From: a virus
DNA length: 22,055 nucleotides
IMG/VR virus record: IMGVR_UViG_3300003691_000062
Location: 1-22,055 of that record
Strand: one strand, 5' to 3'
Each line of letters begins with the position of its first letter. The stretch's first letter is position 1. Below the pieces are notes generated by a model that ran no database searches, had not been told where the DNA came from, and worked only from the letters and a program-made list of their open reading frames with translations. The position numbers and the translations under genes are program-made. Below, one piece after another: positions 8,561 through 13,012 of the stretch.

Positions 8561-8740
8561 TTAAATATCCTCGTTAATTAAATTAAAAGTTTTCATAGTA
8601 ACTGCTTGTGTGCTTGTGACAATAAGTTTATCACCAACTTTTCTAGGTGTACCGGCATGATTACAGGCAACACAAAATTTGACTTCAACACTGCCTTTAG
8701 GGATTACAGACTTAACCTTAACAGAAGTGGTTTTCTTCAT
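8561..8740 (-). CDS. Small 59-residue protein of unknown function between GroES-like and tail tube genes
   Basis: I choose the ATG at 8740 (MKKTTSVKVKSVIPKGSVEV) rather than a TTG at 8755, because GGAGG lies six bases upstream of it. The start sits inside the end of the GroES-like gene, overlapping it by 23 nt. The protein is basic, has a CVAC (CxxC) pair in FCVACNHAG and the pattern HAGTPRKVGDKLIV. That pattern resembles short phage proteins in which a histidine/glycine turn is followed by a PGD-like strand; their function is unknown. The CxxC could bind a metal or be redox-active, but no partner cysteines are present for a zinc site within the monomer. Confidence 0.65.
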   Translation of the reverse strand: MKKTTSVKVKSVIPKGSVEVKFCVACNHAGTPRKVGDKLIVTSTQAVTMKTFNLINEDI

Positions 8741-9044
8741 TAGTGTCCTCCACAATGTAGTAAATTAAATCTTCAGGGATAGCCAACCAATCCTGACCAT
8801 CAGGAGCTTCAGGAACACCAGTTCCGGTTTTACCTTTAGGTATTCTGACCAACATGCCTTTCTTCAGGATCGGATCACGCTGCGTACCGTCCCTATAATA
8901 ACTAATTGAATTAGGTACAACAACTTGTGCCAATGTAGATTCTTCAAGGGCAGAACCTGGGATGACAATCATTCCGATTTTTGTATCTTGTGGGATCATT
9001 CTGACAATCACATTGTCATCCATTGGAATTATTTTTTTACTCAT
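8718..9044 (-). CDS. GroES-like co-chaperonin
   Basis: A 108-residue protein that aligns by eye with GroES/Cpn10 along its whole length. KIIPMDDNVIVRMI corresponds to the GroES N-terminal IRPLHDRVIVK strand. Residues about 16-32 (PQDTKIGMIVIPGSAL) match the mobile loop, whose hydrophobic tripeptide (IVL in Escherichia coli, here IVI at 26-28) docks on GroEL. STLAQVVVPN matches STRGEVLAVG. ILKKGMLVRIPKGKTG matches the KVGDIVIF strand, and WLAIPEDLIYYIVED matches the C-terminal LIMSESDILAIVE. A family member caps GroEL and helps fold client proteins; T4 gp31 is a phage-encoded functional equivalent. The start overlaps the upstream stop as TAATG. The gene sits among tail-completion genes, so the client may be the capsid fusion or tail tube. 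The family call is strong; GroEL binding is inferred. Confidence 0.82.
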   Translation of the reverse strand: MSKKIIPMDDNVIVRMIPQDTKIGMIVIPGSALEESTLAQVVVPNSISYYRDGTQRDPILKKGMLVRIPKGKTGTGVPEAPDGQDWLAIPEDLIYYIVEDTNEENHFC

Positions 9045-10861: not shown

Positions 10862-12982
10862 TTAAGCAGCACCAGTTGCCTTAGCCATCGCACGATAATC
10901 CACCAAACCAGCACCAAAATCTTTACGGACTTTCAATTCCATACCGTCGATATCAGTGTGCAAATTTGTTTCAGTGTACATCTCTTCTTCACCAGCAAGA
11001 TATGCATATTCAAAAGTGTCAGCCATATTACTAAATGCATAATATGCAGTTTGTGAAATAACCCCTAAGCGAGGCTCAACACGATGCATAAGTGAACCCT
11101 GGAAAGGATTAGTGTTGCCAGAAGTCGCGGCAAGAATAGTCTGAACCAACACTTTCTCCACTGCTGTTTCCAGGTCTTCAGGAATAACCAACTGCTGATA
11201 AGAAATGTTCATGAAATTATCGTCGAGAGTCTTAACCTTGCGACCCAGTTTACGAAGATTTGATAATGCAGTTTCACCAAACGCAGAACCAGTTGTCAGC
11301 AGATTACCATGATCGGCGTGAAATAACGCTTTACCATCCTCCATAACAATACTATCAGCAGCATTGTTAAAGAAATCGTAATTCAGGATCAAACCCCAAA
11401 CGATATTTGATTCCAAACGCGAACCAGCAGCACCGAACATGGCGGGTACGCGATCCAAAGCAGACATATCGTCATTGATAATCATCTTACGTGTAAACCC
11501 AATCTTACGCGCAAATGTACCGATACCATACTTCTCTTTACCTTCAGAGAATGTACCAGCCTTATACTCACCATGCTCACCCAATGGCAGCAAGTTTGGA
11601 GCGTCACCCAGGCTATAAGTGTGCTTGTCACGGAAATCATTCACAGTAGTTCTGCGACCGAGATCACGGAAGGTTTGCGGAGTTTCGTTGTATGCGGTTT
11701 GTAGATTTTTGTTCATCACATTTTCCAGGATCAGAGGAAAATCTGAAGTGGAATGAAATGCACGTTCCGCGACTTTATTACGCGACATTCCGCGTGTAGA
11801 AATACCCGATGACTCCACAAACTCACGAGCCACATCCAACAGAGTCATACCTGAGAATTGACGGATACCATCGTTCAACTCGATAACTGACCCACAACGA
11901 TAACGTAAAGCGTTTTCAGCAAATTCACGAGTCTGTACCTGTTCATCAGAACGATCATCAGAATTCAGGCTGCCAGGATTCAGGCGAATGATATTTTCAC
12001 TGTCAGCATTACCCAACTCAGAAATAACCAACCCGCGAAAACGATCAATACCTACATTGTCGGTAAAATTACGGATGGCAAAGTCATCTGTCAGACCTAC
12101 AGCGCGTACAGCATCGATCATAGGTTGTAGCTGCGCTCGTTCCTCAGTGCGTACAGCAGTGGTATCAACCGGAGCAGCAGCGCGTACAGGCTCAACCGGA
12201 GCAGCAGCGCGTACAGGCTCAACCGGAGCAGCAGCGCGTACAGGCTCAACCGGAGCAGCAGCCGGAGCAGCAGCCGGAGCAGCAGCAGCAATGACAGCAG
12301 CATCATACTGACGTTGTAAAGTCGCTATCTCGTCAGCAGGAGCAGCACGTTGTTGGGCAGCTAAGATAGCTGCGCGGATTTGTTCAAGGGTCATCGGTAT
12401 TTCCTCTCTAATTAAAATTTCAGAAAACTCAGGGGTAGGATTGTTTCTCACCCCATTGTTCGTTTCAAAGCTCACAGGTACGAATGATAGTTCATTAGCT
12501 GCCCAACTGGTAGCCCTATAAACTGGTAGTTCGCCCTCTTTCCTGGATTGCAGAGTATATTCAAAAACACTATAGCCTAAACTAACATGCGGGAGAATTC
12601 CTTCGCGCACTTTTTGGAATTTAACATCAGATTCTGCATCACTAGCAAAACGAACAATACCTATCAGTTCATTCGTTGCACTATCGATGCGATAATCTTC
12701 AGTGATCCCAAACACACCATCGATACCTGCGTATGATTGATGACTGTCAATCACTGACAAACCTTTATCCAGTCTCTCAGTGACAATGGATCGTTCAGAT
12801 ACGTCTAACTCTTCCATATATTCAGTATCAGTAGTCCAATCGTATCTACGCCCAGCTTGACCCGTAGTGAACACAACTTCAACAGTACGTTTTTCTACAT
12901 TGACTGTTTCAGGACGGAAGGAAGCAACTCTCCGCTGATGTATTGTATTCACCTTCATTGCTCGTGTAACTTTTCTAGGCAT
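10862..12982 (-). CDS. Prohead protease / scaffold / major capsid fusion protein
   Basis: A 706-residue polyprotein. Residues 1 to about 180 are an HK97-type prohead protease (U35-like): likely catalytic His81 in SVIDSHQS, Ser134 in LPHVSLGYSV, and Glu164 in the NELSFVPVSF strand. Residues about 197-300 are an Ala/Pro/Glu-rich scaffold-like helix with three perfect nine-residue repeats. Residues about 330-706 are a Mu gpT-like/HK97-fold capsid: FARKIGFTRKMIINDD, ALFHADHGNL, YQQLVIPEDLETAVEKVL, and a C-terminal EMYTETNLHTDIDGMELKVRKDFGAG. The protease would cleave the scaffold and release capsid subunits during maturation. Such fusions are a known phage family. GGGAGG lies seven bases before the first ATG. 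A second strong start at 12394 could make a protease-free 510-residue form. Followed by the decoration gene. Confidence 0.9.
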   Translation of the reverse strand: MPRKVTRAMKVNTIHQRRVASFRPETVNVEKRTVEVVFTTGQAGRRYDWTTDTEYMEELDVSERSIVTERLDKGLSVIDSHQSYAGIDGVFGITEDYRIDSATNELIGIVRFASDAESDVKFQKVREGILPHVSLGYSVFEYTLQSRKEGELPVYRATSWAANELSFVPVSFETNNGVRNNPTPEFSEILIREEIPMTLEQIRAAILAAQQRAAPADEIATLQRQYDAAVIAAAAPAAAPAAAPVEPVRAAAPVEPVRAAAPVEPVRAAAPVDTTAVRTEERAQLQPMIDAVRAVGLTDDFAIRNFTDNVGIDRFRGLVISELGNADSENIIRLNPGSLNSDDRSDEQVQTREFAENALRYRCGSVIELNDGIRQFSGMTLLDVAREFVESSGISTRGMSRNKVAERAFHSTSDFPLILENVMNKNLQTAYNETPQTFRDLGRRTTVNDFRDKHTYSLGDAPNLLPLGEHGEYKAGTFSEGKEKYGIGTFARKIGFTRKMIINDDMSALDRVPAMFGAAGSRLESNIVWGLILNYDFFNNAADSIVMEDGKALFHADHGNLLTTGSAFGETALSNLRKLGRKVKTLDDNFMNISYQQLVIPEDLETAVEKVLVQTILAATSGNTNPFQGSLMHRVEPRLGVISQTAYYAFSNMADTFEYAYLAGEEEMYTETNLHTDIDGMELKVRKDFGAGLVDYRAMAKATGAA
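12167..12247 (-). repeat. Three perfect 27-bp tandem repeats in the scaffold linker
   Basis: Plus-strand units at 12167-12193, 12194-12220 and 12221-12247 are identical (AACCGGAGCAGCAGCGCGTA then CAGGCTC). On the coding strand they give three in-frame copies of a nine-residue unit, EPVRAAAPV in one register, and are followed by shorter degenerate AAPAAAP copies to about 12290. The array lies between the protease and capsid parts of the fusion and is prone to slippage in whole codon units, so copy number may vary among relatives without breaking the frame. Confidence 0.95.
12392..12409 (-). promoter_or_regulatory. Internal ribosome binding site and start within the protease/capsid fusion
   Basis: On the minus strand AGAGAGGA (12409-12402) lies seven bases before an in-frame ATG at 12394, encoding Met197 of the fusion (MTLEQIRAAILAAQQ). 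Spacing and strength match the site at the gene's main start (GGGAGG, also seven bases). Initiation here would yield a 510-residue scaffold-capsid protein lacking the protease, giving the expected excess of capsid over protease. The site is seen in the sequence; its use is inferred. Confidence 0.7.
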
Positions 12983-13012
12983 CTTTCCGCCTCCCGGTTA
13001 TTAATGGTTAAA

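Follow-up and report, generated by a model that had tools for sequence, protein, structure and literature searches.

Conserved internal start signal in a fused prohead protease–scaffold–capsid gene of tailed phages

HK97-type phage heads need hundreds of capsid subunits and far fewer proteases. In HK97, a protease gene (gp4) is followed by a separate gene for gp5, a capsid protein that carries a delta domain and forms the bulk of the shell. In lambda (C/Nu3), a scaffold is encoded in-frame inside the protease gene, the protease C being an S49-type peptidase and the capsid protein E being encoded separately. In Mu (I/Z), translation of the scaffold likewise begins in frame within the protease gene, and the capsid protein T has its own gene. 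The herpesvirus UL26/UL26.5 pair also includes an in-frame nested scaffold that shares its C-terminus with the protease–scaffold protein, although UL26.5 has its own transcript and the herpesvirus capsid protein is separate. Fusions of protease and capsid protein are already known, as are scaffold starts nested inside protease genes. Such a fusion poses a puzzle of stoichiometry, which a conserved nested start would resolve.

The fused gene and its internal start site

The window, a 22,055-nucleotide stretch of viral DNA, carries at positions 10862–12982 (minus strand) a single open frame for a fused prohead protease, scaffold (delta) and major capsid protein of 706 aa and 78.0 kDa. The product belongs to phrog_4523 (profile match over residues 9–705, E=2e-208) and matched NF045541 (scaf_prot_MCP2, prohead protease/major capsid protein fusion) over its full length with 567 bits against a cutoff of 525; in these families, the fused protease/capsid annotation is already known. 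The capsid profile PF25209 matched the C-terminal part (E=1.6e-43). The profile for the ClpP-like protease/MCP fusion, NF045540, gave 257 bits, under its cutoff of 475, with a match starting only at residue 209. Rhodobacter RcC phages are among the relatives with a fused protease/capsid annotation (PMC8601537). A His-Ser protease (S78/U35-like) and an HK97-fold capsid thus lie within one ORF, as in the fusion family, and protease and delta-capsid were not found as separate genes in the window. The order of the parts and the type of fold are those of HK97 gp4/gp5; in HK97, however, the two genes are separated by a stop codon, which ends the protease frame 2 nt ahead of the capsid ATG, whereas the window gene has no such stop and part of its product would be covalently fused.

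The S78/U35-like prohead protease domain (12479–12982, minus strand; residues ~1–168) contains the dyad His81 and Ser134, of which the former was invariant in 41 homologues and the latter in 34. Its AF2 model had a pLDDT of 83.5, and the top fold match was T4 gp21 (5jbl; probability 1.00, E=1.5e-3). A disordered linker between protease and scaffold (12425–12466, minus strand; residues 173–186, AF2 pLDDT <50) precedes the delta-like scaffold domain (11960–12394, minus strand; residues 197–341), which is predicted to consist of two helices (199–211 and 216–234), an Ala/Pro-rich linker and three further helices (274–295, 299–307 and 312–324). Within this domain, positions 12170–12277 encode Ala/Pro-rich direct repeats (AAAPVEPVR, three times), predicted to be disordered. 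The HK97-fold capsid domain (10865–11959, minus strand; residues ~342–706) was delimited by PF25209 and Foldseek, which matched it to HK97-fold capsids with probability 1.00; a solved structure close to the fusion family was not found in the structure search. Elsewhere in the head/tail region, positions 8718–9044 encode a probable GroES-like co-chaperonin; at the equivalent position, relatives have a co-chaperonin or a 'chaperonin 10 Kd subunit'.

The candidate internal start codon is the ATG of Met197 (12392–12394, minus strand). The Shine–Dalgarno (SD) sequence AGAGAGGA, which the first-pass annotation had placed seven bases upstream, was located there at 12402–12409 (minus strand), within Arg-Glu-Glu codons and with a 7-nt spacer; its GAGGA was retained in relatives. 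That annotation had also rated the site equal in strength to the start of the full-length gene, which the duplex energies contradict: the internal SD gave −6.4 kcal/mol, against −10.3 kcal/mol for GGGAGG at 12990–12995 (minus strand), 7 nt before the full-length ATG. When the sites of 17 minus-strand genes in the window were scored, the internal SD still ranked with the better ones. Over −30 to +20, the folding energy of the RNA was −3.3 kcal/mol at the internal start (more open, at the 94th percentile of the gene) and −6.7 kcal/mol at the gene's own start. The putative nested gene (10862–12394, minus strand) encodes a scaffold–capsid precursor of 510 aa and 55.7 kDa. In the full AF2 model, Met197 marks a boundary, with the disordered linker on one side and the first scaffold helix on the other. 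For the window gene alone, synonymous shuffling gave p=0.16, a value possible by chance, and about 9–11% of the other in-frame ATGs in the same homologous genes scored like the Met197 site. Chance is excluded because the site is kept across homologues, and not from the window gene by itself.

Conservation of the junction start in fused and unfused relatives

The first-pass annotation had named absence of the site from most homologues as evidence against two nested products; the outcome was the opposite. Among first-round homologues, with SD energies of −4.5 or better counted, the junction ATG was preceded by an SD in 34/36, compared with 11% of 636 other in-frame ATGs. Among divergent representatives, an in-frame ATG with an SD of −5.3 or better, 70–160 codons upstream of the capsid domain, was present in 59/69, against 0–34% in other frames or regions. 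Because one first-round scan pattern had included the junction peptide, with a risk of ascertainment bias, we fetched 80 further loci using capsid-only patterns. Of the 29 representatives from this set, 21 had the junction SD-ATG, compared with 0–41% in control frames and regions, except for one region, scorable in only 18 genes, with 8/18 (44%). An SD-blind rule, taking the first ATG past the protease end motif, found an SD in 36 of 46 cases, against a control rate of 22% (p=4e-16), and synonymous shuffling pooled over genes gave p=0.003, the weakest of the tests and one of low power, the encoded residues themselves being SD-like; these p-values are too small, since related sequences are not independent, while the direction was alike in every test. 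The two nested products proposed earlier, and the nested start itself, are strongly supported by this comparative evidence.

About 10 of the 69 representatives had no clear junction SD-ATG (for example, L082, L131, L139, L142, L145 and L147), and two genes, L024 and L026, had the junction Met with the SD absent. In such exceptions, translation may begin at weak starts or at starts lacking an SD, or the fusion may be the sole product; in the hosts of L024 and L026, initiation is perhaps independent of an SD. These two genes are divergent and A+T-rich, with an A-rich stretch upstream of the junction Met.

A similar signal was detected in fusions with another protease. In Paracoccus Psul1, JBD68 and mEp043, a ClpP-like protease precedes a related capsid. 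An SD-ATG occurred at the homologous junction Met in 9/12 fused representatives of the Psul1 type and within the junction region in 28/30 of a further type, represented by L069. Five genes with L069-type capsids (L241, L242, L250, L251 and L254) had an S78-like protease in place of the ClpP-like one, and the SD-ATG was still there. In this set, capsids of one kind are preceded by different protease modules, apparently through exchange, and the sequences indicate that the internal start stays while the protease changes. Capsid identity among the fused genes sharing the start signal ranged from 28 to 80%.

Two unfused relatives, L173 and L174, have an S78-like protease gene (32–34% identical to window residues 26–186), a stop, about 70 nt, and then an SD-ATG that opens a 485-aa scaffold–capsid gene. 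When aligned, the N-termini of this capsid protein and of the window's nested product lay about 9 residues apart (106 vs 97). From this alignment and the HK97 gene order, the nested product therefore corresponds to the protein expected of a separate capsid gene. Two other candidates for unfused capsid genes (L028 and L029) were set aside, as a protease ORF was not seen just upstream, and so was a frameshift in PAN70 that resembled a natural split, as it is annotated as a homopolymer deletion. A segment resembling a signal peptide, which is unexpected in a capsid protein, opens the ORF of six further unfused capsid genes (L177, L178, L179, L181, L183 and L184); it lies about 190 aa ahead of the capsid domain and reads, for example, MKMKNVLAVACTLAIACVMSFGLVSEAFAA in L179.

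Proposed roles of the two products and alternative explanations

On the comparative evidence, we consider it highly probable that the gene yields both the 78-kDa fusion and a 55.7-kDa nested precursor resembling HK97 gp5, and that only some subunits bear a protease. The upstream start would give the protease–scaffold–capsid protein, and the internal start at Met197 the scaffold–capsid protein. The capsid domain common to both products would allow them to co-assemble; the fusion would then carry its tethered protease into the prohead interior, the nested protein being the source of protease-free subunits, and the protease would finally cut off itself and the scaffold, leaving a mature capsid protein of ~40 kDa. 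The initiation signals and their conservation, the boundary between domains and the unfused counterparts were observed; we infer the synthesis of both proteins, their co-assembly, their ratio and the cleavage, as well as a ratio-setting role for the internal start.

The in-frame internal start, the ribosome-binding site and the shared C-terminus of nested genes are all present here in the sequence signal and its conservation. The likeness to lambda C/Nu3 drawn in the first-pass annotation holds for the mechanism, but not for the product, which would be a capsid protein with a scaffold domain and not a scaffold alone; in both lambda and Mu, the nested product lacks a capsid domain, whereas here that domain forms its C-terminal end. 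The initiation site itself resembles that of Mu I/Z more closely: the annotated Z start inside gene I, used as a positive control, has a similar signal (CAGGAGAACAAACCCATG) in unstructured RNA, while the Nu3 start of lambda lies in structured RNA. The SD energies were strong-then-weak, as in the window gene, for HK97 gp4/gp5 (−8.4/−3.7) and lambda C/Nu3 (−12.0/−6.9), and in the reverse order for Mu I/Z (−2.0/−7.4). Since the known systems thus differ in order, SD strength by itself does not decide the ratio, and since the internal SD of the window gene is weaker than its own, it does not predict an excess of capsid protein.

An alternative explanation is that the full-length fusion is the only product, GAGGA being a by-product of Glu-Glu in the linker and the protease being present on every subunit and later cut off. 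A 22-kDa protease on each subunit is physically conceivable, relatives annotate the gene as one protein, and synonymous shuffling has little force for individual genes. We nevertheless regard this explanation as very improbable, because the peptide around the site varies and the DNA does not follow it. The four residues before the junction Met formed 55 distinct 4-mers in the 59 genes; the SD core started in all three codon phases (27/20/10 in this set, in which the automatic choice of the 'strongest' ATG fell inside the protease domain or at its end, off the junction, for L063, L074 and L132); and the SD was retained over residues other than Glu-Glu (GD, KGK, QEH, KGG, RS and others). At Glu-Glu or Glu-Asp sites, the SD-forming Glu was encoded by GAG in 22/23 representatives, with 9.9 expected (p=5e-9), an excess that held in A+T-rich genes in which GAG makes up 15–40% of Glu codons. 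The RNA at the junction start was also unusually open (median 92nd percentile within the gene, p=5e-8). These phase, peptide and codon tests rule out an SD that is a by-product of Glu-Glu, and what is conserved at the junction is, by these tests and by the open RNA, the DNA signal and not the protein. Moreover, the unfused relatives begin their capsid gene at the equivalent place.

If the internal start is used, it could still be mainly a relic of an ancestral separate capsid gene that became fused to the protease gene when a stop codon was lost, with the ratio not under selection. Unfused relatives with separate genes do exist, and the 2-nt distance in HK97 implies that fusion needs little change; yet the signal persists over the whole range of capsid identity, with the flanking peptide rewritten and in front of it two unrelated proteases, which is unlike a relic and makes this origin extremely unlikely as the main explanation. 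It is also unlikely that the nested protein is a minor regulator of assembly and that most subunits come from the fusion; this is a version of the two-product reading, and the probabilities of the two overlap. The stronger SD of the upstream start would fit such a division, both here and in several relatives (e.g. L097, L105 and L119). However, HK97 gp4/gp5 show the same strong-then-weak order with gp5 as the bulk subunit, and the internal site lies in the less structured RNA.

Implications for fused capsid genes

No mention of an internal start was found in the annotations of the fusion families (phrog_4523, NF045541 and NF045540) or in accessible papers, and we could not find a published account in the open literature; subscription papers were mostly outside this search, and an earlier description is possible. 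A nested start that gives the capsid protein itself, across the fusion family and two protease types, thus appears to be undescribed.

Beyond this locus, we think it likely that tailed-phage protease–capsid fusions, with S78-like or ClpP-like proteases, generally hide an in-frame second capsid gene, that the fusion is a dosage-limited carrier bringing a tethered protease inside the prohead, and that database annotation lacks the true major capsid precursor. The nested-start reading is directly testable in cultured phages. If true, it would explain how a shell can be built from a fused gene without a protease on every subunit, it would extend the nesting seen in lambda and Mu to the capsid protein itself, and it would imply that a large group of phages lacks an annotation for its main capsid precursor.
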